From assembly GCA_026874595.1 (NCBI GenBank), contig CM049320.1, forward strand, positions 8,311,464 to 8,375,463: DNA of 64,000 bases. Direction: 5' to 3'. Under the pieces are notes generated by a model. The model was not told the DNA's origin. It searched no databases and saw nothing but the letters and a program-made list of their open reading frames with translations. Source of the DNA: Sipunculus nudus. Lineage: Eukaryota; Annelida; Sipuncula; Golfingiida; Sipunculidae. Each line of letters opens with the position of its first letter. Position 1 is the stretch's first letter. Of this stretch, positions 6,000 to 56,509 are shown in pieces. Position numbers and translations under genes: made by a program.

Positions 6000-6470
6000 T
6001 TTAAAGGTCAGTTTATTAAAAAAATAAAGGATAAACTACAACCTTAAACACGCCCGCTGATGTTATTTGCAATGGAATAATAGCTTTACTATGGAATAAA
6101 CATGATTGCTTGTAGCTCTGGCAGTATCAGGAGCTGAGTGATTTGTTAAACTAGTGTTTTTGGCAGATGGTACAGTGTCACACAATATTATGTGTTTGCT
6201 AAATATATATTCCATGCCATGATTTATCTCTTCACTTTAAGCCCTCCTACTATTGTTTTAAGATATATGCAGATGTACCACCCTTATGTGGATCTCCCCC
6301 TGAAGAGTTAACCCCTACTACAAGCCTGAGTCTCCCTTTATTGCCCTGGGTGAAAGTCTTTTACATGCCCTGGTCAAAACAGCCTATTATGAGACCCCCG
6401 CTTACCTGAAGGCTGACCACCGAACCGTGGGAGATTGTCTACATGTTTGTTGAAACTAAAGTTGATTGCA
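6000..6470. other. No gene seen
   Basis: This stretch separates the TAATTACTTT array from the 290-bp duplication. It is less AT-rich from about 6240 on, but no frame or motif is recognisable. Confidence 0.5.
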
Positions 6471-7025
6471 AGGGCCACATTAGATAACTGTAAACTGGTT
6501 CTGGTTTATTTTTCTGCTGAATGTTTTTGCTGGGGCACAAGAGACGAACTAGAAAACAGTTGGCCAGAGACACTGCTAGTGTCCAGATGGGTGCTCTGAG
6601 CTGTGAGCTAAGCACCAAGTTTACCTGTGGGTCCCATGTCACAGAGAGAGGACTTTTTGACTGTTTCCAAGTGAAGGAATTATTTTGGTCAACTTTTAAA
6701 AACTTTCTGAACATTTTTTTAGTTCTCTTCAAGCTGATGCATCACTGTTGTATCATTGTAAGGGCCACAATAGATAACTGTAAACTGGTTCTGGTTTATT
6801 TTTCTGCTGAATATTTTTGCTGGGGCACAAGAGACGAACTAAAAAACAGTTGGCCAGAGACACTGCTAGTGTCCAGATGGGTGCTCTAAGCTGTGAGCTA
6901 AGCACCAAGTTTACCTGTGGGTCCCTTGTCACAGAGAGAGGACTTTTTTACTGTTTCCAAGTGAAGGAATTATTTTGGTCAACTTTTATAAACTTTCTGG
7001 ACATTGCTGATGCATCAGTGTTTAA
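6471..7025 (+). repeat. 290-bp tandem duplication
   Basis: Two adjacent copies begin AGGGCCACA at 6471 and 6761, an offset of 290 bp. They are nearly identical through '...GACTTTTT-CTGTTTCCAAGTG...' to about 6705 and 6995. The second copy then carries a ~20-bp deletion before GCTGATGCATCA. Both copies keep a plus-strand open frame containing GHKRRT-KQLARDTASVQMG. That frame matches no family I recognise, so it may be incidental. Few differences between the copies suggest a recent event compared with the surrounding decayed repeats. Confidence 0.8.
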
Positions 7026-9522: not shown

Positions 9523-9681
9523 TGTTACGGGGTACATAAAAAAGTGGACCGAACTCTCTCGCTAGCAAGGCTTGTTTTTTCTAGCGAAGCGGCTGGAACG
9601 CCGGACATGTGCGCTACCGACAGGAGTTCGAATCCCGGGATCAGCCCTTTATTTCCCCCTGAGCAAAATGATTCCCTAACA
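9523..9681 (+). mobile_element. Solo LTR of a TRIM family with tRNA-like Pol III promoter
   Basis: This 159-bp unit begins TGTTACGG and ends CCTAACA. It is the same sequence family, in the opposite orientation, as the two terminal repeats at 44219-44672. It contains a near-consensus A box, TAGCGAAGCGG (9582-9592), and B box, GAGTTCGAATCCC (9624-9636), in tRNA-like order. No primer binding site follows: the 3' flank is ATATAT. That makes it a solo LTR rather than a full element. Flanks TTTAT and ATATA give no convincing target duplication. Read alone it would pass for a tRNA-derived SINE; the paired arrangement at 44 kb argues otherwise. Confidence 0.65.
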
Positions 9682-9754: not shown

Positions 9755-10106
9755 TACATCTGCAGAAATCCATTCCATTTTCGGACGACGTGACAGGGCA
9801 GTACCACACGCTTCCTCTCATGTTATAAATCCTGGTGTAAACCAGGTTCGATGACCACTGCACCTGCCGGCCCTGAGTCGTGAAATCCTCCCCATAGCCC
9901 GGTCTTACAACCGTGGACCCCGCGAAAGGCGCATTCGTTTGTGAGTAAAGCACGGCTGTTAGGGACGGCCTTCCCATTAAACCTGCAGACCACTCACCCT
10001 GGATGGGGGCCGACTGTGAAAAATCTGACGACCAAGGCTGAGATTCGAACTCACAATCTCCCGGCTTTGAGTCCTGTGCTCTACCCCTGAGACACAAAAG
10101 CCGGTT
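9755..10106 (-). mobile_element. tRNA-derived SINE, copy 1
   Basis: Read on the minus strand from about 10106, the head contains TGTCTCAGGGGTAGAGCACA (A-box region) and GAGTTCGAATCTC (B box), about 70 bp in total and tRNA-shaped. A body follows with 'GGTGAGTGGTCTGCAGG' and 'ACGGCTGT'-type segments shared with the copies at 23.5 and 47.3 kb. Three diverged copies with a common head and body support an interspersed Pol III element rather than a tRNA gene. The anticodon stem is mismatched. The exact 3' end is unclear. Confidence 0.75.
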
Positions 10107-17403: not shown

Positions 17404-17479
17404 GAATGCAAGCCTCCGCTATTTTGGGTTTACTATTGTGGGAAAAAACCGTGTTTGCATTCACTTATTCGGTCCATAC

Positions 17480-18336
17480 TGTTACAGGTGCCCCTTAAAT
17501 TGGGGGCAGTGGTCTTACAGATGATTGTTTTATTGTGCACATGGATGTTCCATGTGTTGATGGCTTTACGTTTGTGTGCCACGCGTAGCTCGTGTTGTAG
17601 CGGCCTCGCTTGGCCGGATGTTGCAGGCTCGGTTTAATCCTCATTGATTGAACCCTAGATACACAGCGTTCTTTGTTCTAGCATGTTCTTTGAACATGTG
17701 TACTGTGTTAGATTCTTTAGATTGTTCGAGCAATGGAAGGTTCTCGGCTGGAGGTGAGAAGTTATAAATAGGGGGCTGTGTTTTTGGACCGAGGGGGAGG
17801 GGAGGTAAGAGAATATTCCAGCGGCCACAAAAGCGTGTATGTCGGTTTGTGGGACCTATTCCGATAAGTGCGACAATTATAGATTTTCTTCAGATTTTCT
17901 TCTGGATTTTGTGATGAATCTTATTTGGTCTTCAGTTTACTTTCTGGATTGTTACAAGAGCTTTACATTGGACTGCTATACTCCGAGAGAATTTGTGTGA
18001 ACTTTTCATCTGGCTTATACATTTTAAAGAAATTATCGCTGTGACAGTGTTGGTATCCAGGTACTCTGCACTTTGTTTATTTTACTGTGTGATTGTATTG
18101 ATTTGGTGTTATACTGCTGTGATCCTGTGTAATTGTATTGATTTAGTGTATTGTATTGTTAGGGTTGTTTTAAGAATAAATTATAGTTATTTGTTAACAA
18201 AAAAACACTGACTTCTTTATTCATTCCCCTAGACATTTCACGCTGCCTAGTGTTACAGAATCTGATTTTTTTATCTCCTTGACAAAATTTATGTTCATCA
18301 CTTATACGTGATCTGTTGATATTAGGTTCCGTATCA
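17480..18336 (+). mobile_element. Solo LTR, family L, copy 1
   Basis: It runs from TGTTACAG to CCGTATCA, about 857 bp, and is homologous throughout to 28287-29024 and 53293-54136. Internal signals appear in LTR order: TATAAATAG at 17763-17771 as a TATA box, and AATAAA at 18175-18180 as a polyadenylation signal, about 150 bp from the 3' end. The flanks ATAC and ATAT differ at one base, consistent with an aged 4-bp target duplication. No primer binding site or internal region adjoins it, so it is a solo LTR. Frames within it are incidental. Confidence 0.8.
17763..17771 (+). promoter_or_regulatory. LTR TATA box
   Basis: TATAAATAG lies in the middle of the LTR. The equivalent is at 53576-53584, and TATATAAAAG occupies the place in the 28.3-kb copy. 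Conservation in all three copies supports a promoter role. Confidence 0.6.
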
Positions 18337-19092
18337 ATATTCCGATGTTCAATCGGGCATATGTGAATGCACATTTGTGAATATTTCTGGTAATCTTTAA
18401 TGGAGCCGGACCGACACCAAAATCTAATCGATTCTTCATTTGGCTCATTCCCGAGATGCCCTCAGGTCCATTCGTGCATAAGTGACTGTACATTTATGAA
18501 TATTTTTATATGAGGTTCCAGAATCATTTGCCGGATCATTTTTAAAAATCAAACTTTGGCCCTTTCCCTAGGTACCCTGAAAATTTCAAGGGATTTTTAT
18601 TCATGACTGCGTGAGTTATGTTGCGCAACACAAACGAACTGGGATAAAAGTATACCCTCCTGGTCGAAGCAGATATATTGGTATGTGGAAGTATTATCAG
18701 TCCTTTTGCAATGAACATTTTAAGTGTGTCCGAAAACAAAATGGTTTACACTGAATGTTTGACAAGCTGCCGAAATTTAATGTTAAAAGTTGTTTTTTTT
18801 TTTTTTTTTATTCTCCTAAGATTTATTTCCAATTTTATTTTTATATTTATTATTAATCAACAGATAACATATACACGAGAGGTTTTTTTTGTGTTCCTTC
18901 ATACCGAGTATCATCTTGACCTAACAAGGGTCTAGGTTAATTAACTGGCTGACGTCTCGCGGGGGTTATTAATCCGAGTTTATAATGTGCTTCATATTAA
19001 TTAATGGTGACATCCGAGTTTCTTTGGTTTACATGTATTTTGTTATATTGGATAGAATAATAAAAGTCGGCTGTTTTTTTCATTTTCGATTG

Positions 19093-28286: not shown

Positions 28287-29024
28287 TGTTATAGGTGCTC
28301 TTTTTATTATGTGAAACGGGCGTAACTCCTGTTGTGGCACTCGTGTCTGGCCGCGTATTACATTCTATGTTTAATCCGTACTGGTTGAACTCTTGTTGTC
28401 GTGCTGGCTTGGGGCGAGATCACGTGTACACCATGGTGTGTAGAGGCACGGCGATGTTTTCTAGAGAATTCCTGAAACGCGTGGTTACTGTTGAGTAGGG
28501 TCCTTATAGACTGTTCGAGAAGTGGAAAATTCTCAGTTTGGGTGTGAAAGTATATAAAAGGGCTGTGTTTTGGAACGGAAGAGAGAGCAGCAGAGCAGAT
28601 ACCAGCTGACGCAGAAGCGTGTGTCAGGACCTTATCCGACGAATGCGGCAATTATAGATTTTCAAAGACTTTCTCCTGGATTTTATGCATTTGAACTTCA
28701 GTTTACTTTATGGGTTGTTGCAAGAACTTTCCACTGGACTGTCATTCTCCGAGAGTTTACAATTAAAGGACTTATCGTGGTAACGGTGTTGGTATCCAGG
28801 TACTGTGCACATTATTTTCTATGTGATTGTATTTATGTGTTGTTATGCCGCTGTTTTACTGTATAATTGTATTGATTTAGTGTATTGAAATGTTAGGGTT
28901 GTTTTAAGAATAAATTATAGTTATTTGTCAACAACAAAAAACACTGACTTCTTTATTCATTCCCCTATCCCAAAATTTGTGTTCATCACACATACGTGAT
29001 CTGTTTATATTAGGTTCCGTAACA
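28287..29024 (+). mobile_element. Solo LTR, family L, copy 2, with 4-bp target duplication
   Basis: It runs from TGTTATAG to CCGTAACA, 738 bp, and is flanked on both sides by ATAA (28283-28286 and 29025-29028). The TATA box is TATATAAAAG at 28551-28560 and the polyadenylation signal AATAAA is at 28909-28914. It shares the GACTTCTTTATTCATTCCCC and GTGATCTGTT-ATATTAGGTTCCG tail with the other two copies. It is the most diverged copy and is shorter through internal deletions. The exact 4-bp duplication and TG...CA ends make the solo-LTR call firm; no internal region is present. Confidence 0.88.
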
Positions 29025-29039
29025 ATAAGGATCTTTGAA

Positions 29040-40939: not shown

Positions 40940-41785
40940 ACTCCAGGGTAAACTGGAACCACTATACCACCATTACCACCAATATACCCACATCCAGCCT
41001 TGGTACCCTGGAAACCATCCCACCACCAATATTTACCCATCCAGCCTGGGTATCAAAAGCAGTCCCACCACCAACACTTATGTACACAGATCCAGCCTTG
41101 GTACCCTGGACTCCATTCCAACAACATCCATGTACACACATCCAACCTTGATACCCTTGACCCAATTCCAGCAACACCCATGTACACATATCCAGCCTTT
41201 GTACCCTGGACCACATTCCACAAACATCCATGATCACACATCCAGCCTTTGTACCCTGGACTCCAGTCCATCACCAGTCATGTAATCACATATCCAGCCT
41301 TAGTACCCTAGACCCAGTTCCATCAACACTGTGTGCACACAACCATCCTTGGTACCACCACCAGTCATGTTTTCACACATCCAGACTTGGTATCCTGAAC
41401 CCTATTCCACAAGCACCACCTATATGCATGCATCCAGCACTGGTACCCTGGATCCTATTCCCCCAACACTACAAATGTGCACACATCCATTCTTGGTACC
41501 CTGAACCCCATTCCACCAACACCCATGTACTTTCAACCAGCCTTGGTACCTTGGACCTAAGTTCACCACCAGTCATGTATTCGCACATCCAGACTTGGTG
41601 CTCTGAACCCAGTTCCACCAACACCCATGTACACACACCCAGCCATGGTACTCTTGACCAAAACCCACAAGCACCACACATCAAGCATTGGTACCCTGGA
41701 CTCCATTCACACATCCAGCCTTGTTACTGTGGAACCTATTCCACCATCACCACTCATGTACACACATTCAGCATTGATAAGATGC
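40940..41785. repeat. ~50-bp minisatellite, about 17 units
   Basis: Unit consensus resembles CCAGCCTTGGTACCCTGGAC followed by CCATTCCACCAACACCCATG and TACACACAT. Units are mostly 47-53 bp; two are truncated (about 38 and 28 bp). The unit lacks stop codons in several frames on both strands, so open frames up to 192 codons (41230-41808) arise without coding function. Markers ACCAGTCATGT, CCAGACTTGG, CACAAGCACC and GCAYTGGTACC recur in the same order twice (about 41349-41450 and 41565-41700), a higher-order period of about four units. Confidence 0.9.
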
Positions 41786-42065
41786 ATAAATTACCTTTTT
41801 GTTTATGATGTGCTCATGAGGTAATCTTTTAACATGCTGCAGATTTAATCTAAACAAATATAATATTGCACATAATTACAGGTTTTGAATTTGCTAATTT
41901 TATCATTCTGATCACAAATTACTTATGTTATCCTTATTCATCTTCTAAATTCAAGGTTTCAGTAAAACTGCCTTGAAAAATTTAACAAAATTATCATTGC
42001 AAAGCCTACTTCTTGAAACAGCAAAATTTTCATCATGCATCACATTTGATAAAGAAATATCTTAC

Positions 42066-44218: not shown

Positions 44219-44372
44219 TGTTACGAACACAAATTGCTCAGGGAAAAAGACTTTGCTGATCTGGATTCGAACCCATGTCGGTGGCGCTTAAGTCCGGCGT
44301 ACCAACCGCTTCGCTAGTAAAACAAGCTTTACTAGCGAGACAGTTCGGTCCGCTTTTATGTCACTCGTAACG
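44219..44372 (-). promoter_or_regulatory. TRIM 3' LTR with A box and B box
   Basis: Minus-strand A box TAGCGAAGCGG at 44316-44306 and B box GGGTTCGAATCC at 44274-44263 match the Pol III internal promoter consensus closely; the spacing is tRNA-like. Just upstream, CGCTAGTAAA-GCTTGT-TTTACTAGCG forms a perfect 10-bp hairpin that overlaps the A box. The LTR's outer TG appears mutated at the PPT side (GTGCGTTACG). Confidence 0.7.
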
Positions 44373-44500
44373 CACCCCCTCTTAAGAGTGTTCTGCTATC
44401 AGAACAAGACTATCCCAAGAGTCACACCTTCGGTGAACTAGGTGGCGTTATTATCTAATTACTTCAAACCACCATTCCCGGGGCCACAAAGTTTGCCGTC

Positions 44501-44518
44501 ATCCCGGAGGAGCCCCCA
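44501..44518 (-). other. Primer binding site, tRNA-Pro type
   Basis: On the minus strand it reads TGGGGGCTCCTCCGGGAT, two bases after the LTR's terminal CA. Seventeen of 18 bases match the complement of the tRNA-Pro 3' end as used by several LTR retroelements. Confidence 0.7.
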
Positions 44519-44520
44519 TT

Positions 44521-44672
44521 TGTTACGAAGAAAATTTGTTCAGGGAAAAAGACTGGGCCGATCCGAGATTCGAACCAATGTCGCTGGCGCTCAAGTCCGG
44601 CGTACCAACCGCTTCGCAAAGCAAGCGTTACTAGAGAGGCAGTTCGGTCCGTTTTTATGTCATCCCATAACA
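44521..44672 (-). promoter_or_regulatory. TRIM 5' LTR with A box and B box
   Basis: A box TTGCGAAGCGG at 44619-44609 has one change from the other copies, and the B box GGTTCGAATCTC is at 44576-44565. The hairpin arm is disrupted here (GTAACGCTTGCTTTGCG). A Pol III transcript started in this LTR would run through the PBS. Confidence 0.65.
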
Positions 44673-52184: not shown

Positions 52185-53290
52185 TTTTACATTTTTATTT
52201 ATTTATTTATACATAAATTTTACCAGGATGGCCCATTCAGCTTGTTCAGCTGTTTTTATAGGGTCCTTGAATTATCACAGAGAAATATACATTCACAAAG
52301 AGATATACATTACATGCTCACATTTATACAGTCATGGAAATAAAATAATGATCTAAACATATACATATTTAAAATACTAAGATTGCTAAATATGACACAA
52401 TTATAAACATATAGAATTATAAAAGTCGATGTGTAACTAAAATTCTTAGCTTTATTCATGGAAATCATTGTTGTAAAGAATTGTATGGTTGTTTAAAAGG
52501 CTTAACATCAGTGACGTGTCTTAAATCATTTGGAAGTTGATTTCAATTTGCGTACCTGCATAACGAAAGCTTCATTTAAACCTGCCAGTTCTTGGTTTTA
52601 CGATGGCAAGATTGCCACTGGCCGTATGTCGTGTGTTATACGGGTTACGTGCCTATTTTAGGCCACGTCTAAAAGTAGGAGGTGCATCACCAAATAAACA
52701 TTTAAAAACTAAAAGATTTATATTATGGTGATATCTCTGTTCCACGGTCATCCAACCTAGCTAAATGATTAGTGATGTTAGATAAGTATTTATATCGGAG
52801 TTTTTGTTTTTCAACAATACGAGCCGCTTTATTTTGGAGTCTCTGGAATTGTGACTTGTACAATTTCAAGCCTTCAACCAAAACAAAAATGCAGTTGACA
52901 ATGTGGCTTTGAATAAGAGAATGATATATAGGTATAGTCGGTAAAGGTCATGTAATTTTGTGATCATTTTATCGTAAATATAATCCACATGATCTTTCCC
53001 TTTTAAGTGGGAGTCGACGATCAAGCCCAAAAGTTCTGAAAAGTTTTTCAGGAATTAATGTAACATTATTATTGTTAATATTTTTAGTAAAATTAGAGTT
53101 ATGACTGAATATCACATTACTTGATGTAGTAGGGTTGATACATAAATGATTTACGCTGAACCATTTTAGGGTAATGTCATTTACTTTGTAAATTGCAGAT
53201 CGCATTATCGACAGAATCAGCACAGGTTAGCAATGTTATATCGTCAGCTTAAAGTATACACTTATTATTCATATAACTCGGGATATATAT
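52185..53290 (-). pseudogene. Broken LINE (RT domain end to 3' tail)
   Basis: Read on the minus strand, pieces in order are SYMNNKCIL*ADDITLLTCA (the active-site Y of YADD is a stop, + 53249-53251), NDITLKWFSVNHLCINP, RLQNKAA, YNTR (near 52629-52645) and TGRFK. These are the order and motifs of a CR1/L2-like non-LTR retrotransposon from the RT core to the C-terminus. Several frameshifts and stops separate them. The 3' UTR ends GGGCCATCCTGGTAAAATTT and an (AAAT)n tail at about 52190. The 5' side stops where the LTR begins. Confidence 0.8.
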
Positions 53291-53292
53291 AT

Positions 53293-54136
53293 TGTAACAG
53301 AAACCCCTTTTATTGTGTGCAGCGGTCTTACAGATGGTTGTTTTATTGAGCACACGGATGTTCCATGTGTTGTTACCATTTTGTTTGTGTACTACACGTA
53401 GCTCGTTTTGTAGCGGCTTCGCCTTGCCGGATGTTACAGGCTCGGTTTAATCCGCGTTGGTTGAACCCTAGAAACACAGCTTTCTTTCTTCTAGTATGTT
53501 CATTGAAGGTGTGTACGGTGTTAGATTCTTTAGATTGTTCGAGCAATGGAAGGTTCTCGGCTGGAGGTGAGAAATTATAAATAGGGGGCTGTGTTCTGGA
53601 GCCGGGAGAGGGGTGAAAGAGTGTTCCAGCGGACACGTAAGCGTGTTAGTCAGTGAGTTGGACCTATCCGATTATCCAGTAATTTCAGAGATTCTACTAT
53701 TACTAACACTTTACAATTTATTGCTGCCTGTCTCAAGTTACTTTCTGGATTGTTACAAGAGCTTTACATTGGACTGTTATTCTCCGAGAGAATTTGTGTG
53801 AACCTTTTTATCCGGCTTATACATTTTAAAGAACTTGTCGCTGTGACAGTGGTGGTATCCAGGTAGTGTGCACTTTTTTTTTACTGTGTGATTGTATTGA
53901 TTTGCTGTTATACTGCTGTTATACTGTGTGATTGTATTGATTTAGTGTTTTGTAATGTTAGGGTTGTTTTAAGAATAAATTATAGTTATTTGTTAACAAA
54001 AAACATTGACTTCTTTATTCATTCCCCTAGACATTTCACGTTGCCTAGTGTTACAGAATCTGATTTTTTTTTATCTCCTTGACAAAATTTATGTTCGTCA
54101 CGCATGCGTGATCTTTTGATATTAGGTTCCGTAACA
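53293..54136 (+). mobile_element. Solo LTR, family L, copy 3
   Basis: From TGTAACAG to CCGTAACA, 844 bp. TATAAATAG at 53576-53584 and AATAAA at 53974-53979. It is closer to the 17.5-kb copy than to the 28.3-kb copy. Flanked by ATAT on both sides, though the context is TA-rich and this could be chance. GATTGTATTGATTT is tandemly repeated near 53888-53945. It abuts the LINE, whose reading frame runs up to its edge; no further LINE sequence is recognisable on the far side. Confidence 0.82.
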
Positions 54137-56509
54137 ATATATATATATATAGCTGTTTTTCTCCGAGAAACCTATTTTGATTCCCTAAAATTCCATGCCA
54201 AGTTCAATCTTTATTCATGTCTTTGTTGACACACAGGATGGCTTAGAACTGTACAACATCAGAGACCTTTCATTTATTGTTCCGAGTGAAAGAGATATCT
54301 GAACCTCAAAAGTCTGGCGTTCTCATTTTTCAAATTATGTCTTTGTTGGAGAGACAAAAAGACATGTCATTCTATAATACATCAATCTTTTCTAGCCTCT
54401 TGAGCCTGATATGTTCAACTATCTATACTCGACCTCTATTTGACAGCTGATTAGTTTTATAAATCCTAGTTATGTGGTTTCTCTTTGTCCTTTGTATTTT
54501 ACTGAGGTCGATACAATGGTATAGAAAACGCTGACGACATGGGGCCTTTGACAAAACCCCGCAAAGCCTCTCTACGAAAAGAGGAAGGAATAACGCCGCC
54601 ACGTCCGTTGGACAAAGAAGACATCTTTAGAGATAATGAAACTGAATTCTCTTCATAGACGAAATGAATCTGTTTAAAATTCAATAAAACAACCATGGTC
54701 TCATTATTTTACCAGCTATAATAACATTTTTAGTGACAATCTTTCTGCTTCTTCAAACGTACTTTGTGTAGATAGACCTCAGCTTTCATCACAAGGATAG
54801 TCACACAGATCTTTCACACTCTTGAAAGACGAAGGATACTGAACTCTGTGAATCAAAATTCTGTCTCCGCGCTTGATGTAACGACATTTTTTTTTATCTA
54901 TTCTAGTTATCATGAGGCCGCTGGTGGTGTCAATCACGAGGTCAAAAATAGATGTTTTGTTCAATTACGGTCTTGCCTGTTATTGACCTGTTTTGACACT
55001 GCACAAGAGTAACAGGCGTGGCTTGTCAGAAGGATTGAAATCTAACCTTTTGCTTGGTAGAAAAATAACCCAAAATAAAACAAGTACATATGAGATAAGC
55101 GTTATGAGCTTTGCAGCTACTTGTTTATAATATGCGAGATCAACAGTTAGGCAAACTTAGTATTGATAGAGAAAATTAACAATAAATATACTGAATATCG
55201 ACGTTTCTGACAATACAGACTTCACAAGTTGGTATCAGAGACATATCAGATTTCTGTTTCTTTTTCAATATATCGCACGTAAAATATTAAAACAGAGAAC
55301 GTGAGAGTCCATCATGATAATTCTTAGCAAAGTAAGTACAGCTTTATGAAAATGCATTTGACACGCACCCTGTATGTTGTCTTTATGAAGGCAATCACCC
55401 TTCCGTTAGAGGTGTTTATACTCAAAACATATGTCTTCCTATTGGGCGCTGTTGGATGGCCGGGACTACTTGGCAACTTAATCCTGGACAGGAGCGCTAT
55501 TTCAGTCCTTTGATTCCATACCCTCATAATCAACGTAGTGTTATTTTATCAATAATCGGCCAAAGGACAAATACCGATAACGTAATGATGGAAAGAGAGG
55601 TGAAAATTTTGAAATAAAGAATGCAACATATAAACGATATCAGTAATTAAATAGTCAAATTTTCTTGAAGCTCTGAAATAAGTGAAAGTTAAAATCTGAC
55701 ATTGACAGATTGTTCATTCATTCTATGTACAGATTTAAGAGATATCAGCAAAATGCAACCTTCAGTATGAAAGCCGTATTTACCTACCATCTTAAAGCAA
55801 CGACTTCAATTAAATTAGTCTAACGCCCTCCCTCTCTCTCCTCCTCTCTTTCTCTCTCTCTCAAACACACACGCACTCACTCTAACTGACAGTGACAAAT
55901 GTTGACTCTCCGGTTAACATCCGGTATGCTGGGTTAAACTTTCTACCCCGAGTTGGATCAGTCGCAGTTATGAAGACTTGGATGATTGTATGTATATCCG
56001 TATCTACCACAAGAAGCGAAAGAGATGAGGCGTCGATGGTTCTAATGGCGCCGGGTACAAGTCTATCCTAATAATCTCAGCCGTACCTGAGACTTTTCAG
56101 GTGGTTTTAATTAGGAGTGGCTGGCCCCTCCTTAAATCGGGGTAACAGGGGCACAAAGGAAGCCTATGTTTATGTCTTACGGAAGGCATTGAAATGATCG
56201 TTAGGAGGTATATACTGTGTATCCGTTTTATTCCGACGGAAGGTCCTATAGGTCCCATCAATCATGATGCAAAAACAACATTTTAGAAGAAAATTATACC
56301 AAAACAAAGCACGATATCATTGATCTGATTGGCCAGTGCTGATATATTTCTAACATGGTGGGCGCAAAATGTTCGTTCTCCTTTGATAAATTAAGGCCTA
56401 CGTATGGCGTTAGACAAGCATATGCTTAGAGGAAATGCTTAAATGCTTTAAAATGAGAGAAAACTATTACTGTGACAGAAAATGATGATATTTAATATAA
56501 TTTCTACAG
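54137..56509. other. No gene identified
   Basis: Minus-strand frames of about 60-70 codons at 54499, 54779 and 55324 have no recognisable motif. A (CT)n tract lies at 55826-55862. Confidence 0.45.

Follow-up and report, generated by a model that had tools for sequence, protein, structure and literature searches.

A probable Helenus-type miniature LTR retrotransposon of Sipunculus nudus, its LTRs bearing tRNA-like Pol III promoter motifs

The element, its priming sites and a related solo LTR

The DNA analysed here is a 64,000-nucleotide stretch of the Sipunculus nudus genome (GenBank assembly GCA_026874595.1, contig CM049320.1, positions 8,311,464 to 8,375,463 of the forward strand), called the window below, with a G+C content of 35.8%. 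On its minus strand, from 44672 to 44219, we found a 454-bp non-coding element of the LTR type, which consists of the following parts:

44521 to 44672, minus strand: 5′ LTR, 152 bp, TGTTAT...CGTAACA
44501 to 44518, minus strand: primer-binding site (PBS), 17 of 18 bases matching the 3′ end of tRNA-Pro
44375 to 44520, minus strand: internal region of 146 bp, in which no coding sequence was recognised
44375 to 44383, minus strand: polypurine tract (PPT), AAGAGGGGG, abutting the 3′ LTR if this LTR starts at TGCGTTACG
44219 to 44374, minus strand: 3′ LTR, 156 bp if its first base is at TGCGTTACG and about 153 bp if it is at GTTACG, the start being uncertain by about 3 bases

Alignment of the two LTRs showed 128 identical bases among 151 aligned, with 6 gap columns, and blastn between them gave an E value of 1.3e-43. 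Both LTRs end in GTAACA and, given the boundary chosen here, both start with TG. An earlier, sequence-only reading of this DNA had placed the element at 44219-44672, which is correct, and had described paired terminal repeats of about 153 bp. The pair is confirmed by the alignment, the actual lengths are 152 bp and 153 to 156 bp, and the strand, absent from that reading, is minus. If both LTRs derive from one insertion, the pair is old, since 23 of the 151 aligned positions are mismatched (about 15% divergence). The 4-base flanks of the element, CTGT and TTGT, agree at three of four positions.

The PBS begins two bases (AA) inside the end of the 5′ LTR, that is, at the +3 position. Its 17/18 match to what we take to be the tRNA-Pro 3′ end is the best in the 64-kb window on both strands, whereas ten dinucleotide shuffles gave best matches of 12 (five shuffles) or 13 (five shuffles). 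The tRNA-Pro PBS claimed at this place therefore holds. The purine tract claimed ahead of the 3′ LTR was also found again, as AAGAGGGGG directly adjoins the LTR when the first of its two possible starts is used.

We looked for mobilisation proteins among the stop-to-stop frames of at least 70 aa that overlap the element. None of the three (78, 84 and 92 aa, the first queried as 77 aa) matched a Pfam family at E 0.1. A search for relatives by one exact 23-base pattern gave no match in GTDB genome contigs and none in IMG/VR.

Within the 64-kb window, the LTR has one further copy:

9523 to 9681, plus strand: related solo LTR of 159 bp (TGTTAC...CTAACA); A box TAGCGAAGCGG, B box AGTTCGAATCC

No internal region was detected at this place. 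The solo LTR is identical to the 5′ LTR at 115 of 152 aligned positions and to the 3′ LTR at 117 of 156, and the three LTRs differ from each other by 15-25%. Its 4-base flanks (TTAT and ATAT) agree at three of four positions, in AT-only sequence where such agreement is little informative. Directly 3′ of it stands an AT repeat, which we interpret as a genomic microsatellite; repeats of this type are frequent in the window.

tRNA-like promoter motifs in the LTRs

The sequence-only reading had claimed an A box plus a B box in each LTR of the element. Both boxes were recovered, with one A-box base differing in the 5′ LTR, and each LTR also carries a run of five T (T5):

44609 to 44619, minus strand: A box of the 5′ LTR, TTGCGAAGCGG, LTR positions 54-64
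44568 to 44576, minus strand: B box of the 5′ LTR, GGTTCGAAT
44545 to 44551, minus strand: CTTTTTC in the 5′ LTR, candidate Pol III terminator
44306 to 44316, minus strand: A box of the 3′ LTR, TAGCGAAGCGG
44263 to 44273, minus strand: B box of the 3′ LTR, GGTTCGAATCC, its first base lying 43 bases past that of the A box
44243 to 44249, minus strand: CTTTTTC in the 3′ LTR, candidate Pol III terminator

The offset from A box to B box is 43 bases in all three LTRs (5′, 3′ and solo), which is close to the distance of about 44 found in a tRNA gene. A strict A+B pattern (TRGCNNAGY, 0-2 nt, GG, 24-50 nt, GGTTCRA) had a single match in the window, which lies in the 3′ LTR, and none in 200 shuffles, while a relaxed pattern allowing AGTTC matched the 3′ LTR and the solo LTR, with a mean of 0.01 matches per shuffle (200 shuffles); both patterns were composed after inspection of the sequence, and their match counts and shuffle figures are descriptive. 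The 5′ LTR escapes both patterns because its A box, TTGCGAAGCGG, is one base off. Searched alone, GGTTCGAATC has two matches in the window, one in each LTR of the element, against a mean of 0.05 per shuffle.

When the three LTRs are compared, 41 of the 54 columns from A box to B box are invariant, as are 36 of the 59 columns upstream and 27 of the 46 downstream; in each box, 9 of 11 positions are invariant. The higher conservation of the span goes in the expected direction, but the difference is small and comes from three sequences. The CTTTTTC motif sits shortly 3′ of the B box in both LTRs of the element. In the solo LTR the T run is interrupted (TTTATTT), and a stop at this place is therefore not strictly conserved. 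Runs of four or more T are absent from the internal region, which is unremarkable for 146 bases. All three LTRs also contain a TATA-like ACATAAAA upstream of the A box, a motif that would allow Pol II transcription as well.

ARAGORN called no whole tRNA in the 64-kb window at default settings, nor did the three LTRs give a call when the threshold was lowered as far as 80%. At 70-75% of the threshold, four different calls appeared in the LTRs, of which two lie on the opposite strand; shuffled versions of the 3′ LTR gave 0.15-0.42 calls each. At 70%, 700 bases of the region gave five calls. Since no whole tRNA is called at default, the LTRs contain no recognisable tRNA gene but a promoter-like remnant. 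A functional tRNA was rejected on the same ground and because the relaxed calls are few, inconsistent between copies and near the shuffle rate.

Other structural candidates were discarded as well. In the 3′ LTR (44219-44374, minus strand), an inverted repeat of the A-box arm gives a very stable fold (z about -4.9 over 61 bases). Shuffles of this 61-base region were as stable in 0 of 300 cases for the 3′ LTR, 81 of 300 for the 5′ LTR and 167 of 300 for the solo LTR, and an A-box hairpin, strong in the first and not in the other two, was thus not retained as a family feature. The fold of the whole 3′ LTR was equalled in 0 of 200 shuffles, and in 1 of 300 in a second run. A structured internal region was rejected (z -0.30, 72 of 200 shuffles equally stable), as was a known structured RNA or ribozyme (the retrozyme idea), since nothing in the window reached an Rfam gathering score.

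Other features of the window

Among 126 frames of at least 70 aa in the window, ten were picked by eye. None of them matched a Pfam family at its cut-off, and two had weak matches that fell well short of it (E 0.042 and 0.098). For one LINE-like frame, none of 6 candidates qualified as a homologue at E 0.001.

A further tRNA-like stretch (CTCAGGGGTAGAGCAC ... GTGAGTTCGAATCTCAG), spotted by eye at 9834-10105 on the minus strand, is possibly the head of a SINE. At 40962-41805 lies a degenerate tandem repeat of about 50 bp with long reading frames open on both strands, and at 6465-7005 a 251-bp direct repeat whose two copies are 96% alike and stand 290 bases apart, start to start. Another repeat is dispersed over three places (17476-18340, 28698-29028 and 53289-54140), its first 300 bases being present in two of them. 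Its pieces are 68-95% alike to the reference copy, and nothing was recognised by eye in the six-frame translation.

Transcription, rival readings and known systems

The LTR pair, the PBS, the PPT and the boxes support the structural part of the earlier proposal, namely that this is a miniature LTR retrotransposon whose LTRs have tRNA-like Pol III promoter motifs, with a logic similar to that of Cassandra. That reading knew of no described animal family of such design, but one exists in Helenus, reported from six animal phyla (PMC10886601). Helenus elements are TRIMs with tRNA-derived sequence in their LTRs, for which a class TRIMp3 was proposed (Kojima 2024, PMC10886601). The design has thus been in print since 2024, and our element looks like this known kind. 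In the literature searched, the name Helenus or TRIMp3 is used in the TRIM sense by that paper and by a 2026 meeting report citing it (PMC12859917), further hits appearing unrelated from their titles. Judging from its sequence features, the element is probably an old copy, presumably dead, of a TRIM of the Helenus type, with a type-2 Pol III promoter of tRNA origin in its LTRs. That its structure alone is of the Helenus type, whichever polymerase transcribes it, is very likely.

From the promoter motifs, we infer that the element may be transcribed by Pol III. Transcription would start in the 5′ LTR, slightly upstream of its A box, pass the T5 run there and terminate at the T5 run of the 3′ LTR, so that both ends of the RNA share one segment (R). 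A host tRNA-Pro would then prime first-strand synthesis at the PBS, strand transfer would proceed via the R repeats, and the second strand would be primed from the PPT. The enzymes and the integrase would be supplied in trans by an autonomous LTR retrotransposon using the same primer; in the published animal cases this partner is Gypsy (PMC10886601).

Because a T5 run is present in both LTRs, a full-length Pol III transcript would require read-through at the first stop. We consider it conceivable, though unlikely, that the element belongs to an as yet unlisted Helenus family, from a host missing from the published list, whose LTRs both carry a T5 Pol III stop; full-length RNA would depend on read-through of the first stop, and the start-to-stop segment would act as R. 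If true, such an arrangement would be for Pol III what the 5′ poly(A) site problem is for retroviruses. Should the element be transcribed in the way outlined above, it becomes a testable question how Pol III gets past the stop of the first LTR and ends in the second. The element adds a case of an LTR element that has apparently acquired a SINE-like Pol III promoter.

The main rival to this transcription is a Pol II start from ACATAAAA. The TRIM would be the same, but transcribed by Pol II as in any ordinary Gypsy derivative, and its boxes would be left over passively from a SINE that had inserted into the LTR, with no part in driving transcription. The TATA-like motif, found upstream of the A box in every LTR examined here, fits such a start, and the Helenus paper, by its own account, provides no experimental validation of Pol III transcription (PMC10886601). 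However, the 43-base offset between the boxes has been kept in three LTRs despite 15-25% divergence, and we regard a Pol II-driven element with relic boxes as unlikely.

A tandem or nested pair of tRNA-derived SINEs, spaced by about 300 bp, could also account for units of about 150 bp with tRNA-like boxes, another of which stands alone at 9523-9681, and the AT repeat that follows the solo unit could, taken alone, be read as a simple tail. Such a pair would nevertheless leave aside the GTAACA ends, the PBS two bases past the first unit and the purine tract ahead of the second, and the ends of the two paired units lack an A-rich or simple tail. On account of the termini, the PBS and the PPT, we disfavour the SINE pair and rate it very improbable. 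An assembly of the repeats and motifs by chance is hardly credible, given the blastn E value between the LTRs and a PBS match of 17/18 where the best of ten shuffles reached 13. We retain the Helenus-type TRIM as the preferred reading and compare it below with published systems.

Helenus comprises 113 families in Pucciniales fungi, further families in six animal phyla, with 51 in pteriomorph bivalves, and one family in the plant Selaginella moellendorffii (PMC10886601). We compared the element with the published description of Helenus. The element shares with Helenus a short LTR pair, and its 454 bp, with LTRs of 152 and 156 bp, lie within the published range of 311-1263 bp, where the screen was limited to under 1000 bp and the longest family reaches 1263 bp (PMC10886601). 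It also shares a PBS that lies just inside the 5′ LTR and matches the 3′ end of a tRNA; bivalve Helenus families use tRNA-Lys, His, Ile, Pro, Glu or Ser as primers, tRNA-Pro thus being among them (PMC10886601). A PPT adjoining the 3′ LTR, the lack of coding sequence and the solo LTR in the window are further likenesses, solo LTRs having been published for Helenus, and the predicted tRNAs of many Helenus families are non-functional (PMC10886601).

The A and B boxes are present in all three LTRs, with slight departures from the published wording, which gives GGTTC in box B, YGG in box A and, in most families, TRGCY (PMC10886601). Unlike most Helenus families, the element has TRGCG in box A (TTGCG in the 5′ LTR), and the box B of the solo LTR reads AGTTC instead of GGTTC. 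Animal Helenus families have 4-bp target duplications (PMC10886601), whereas in the old copy described here the duplication is inexact. Hairpin, palindrome and TATA are unmentioned in the available text of PMC10886601, where a terminator appears once, for Cassandra.

Among other animal TRIMs, biv-TRIM of bivalves differs from the element by longer repeats (202-218 bp), a shorter internal domain (77-80 bp), the lack of an unambiguous PBS, and a PPT that is GGGGAGA in most cases (PMC6934838). Cassandra of plants is, like the element, a TRIM with a Pol III promoter in its LTRs; its promoter is 5S rRNA-derived. Its PBS is a different one, TGGTATCAGAGC (PMC7215508). Ajax of nemerteans resembles the element as an animal TRIM with Pol III-type promoter sequence in its LTRs, and differs from it by a 5S rRNA-derived promoter, a PBS to tRNA-Leu and 5-bp duplications (PMC10886601).
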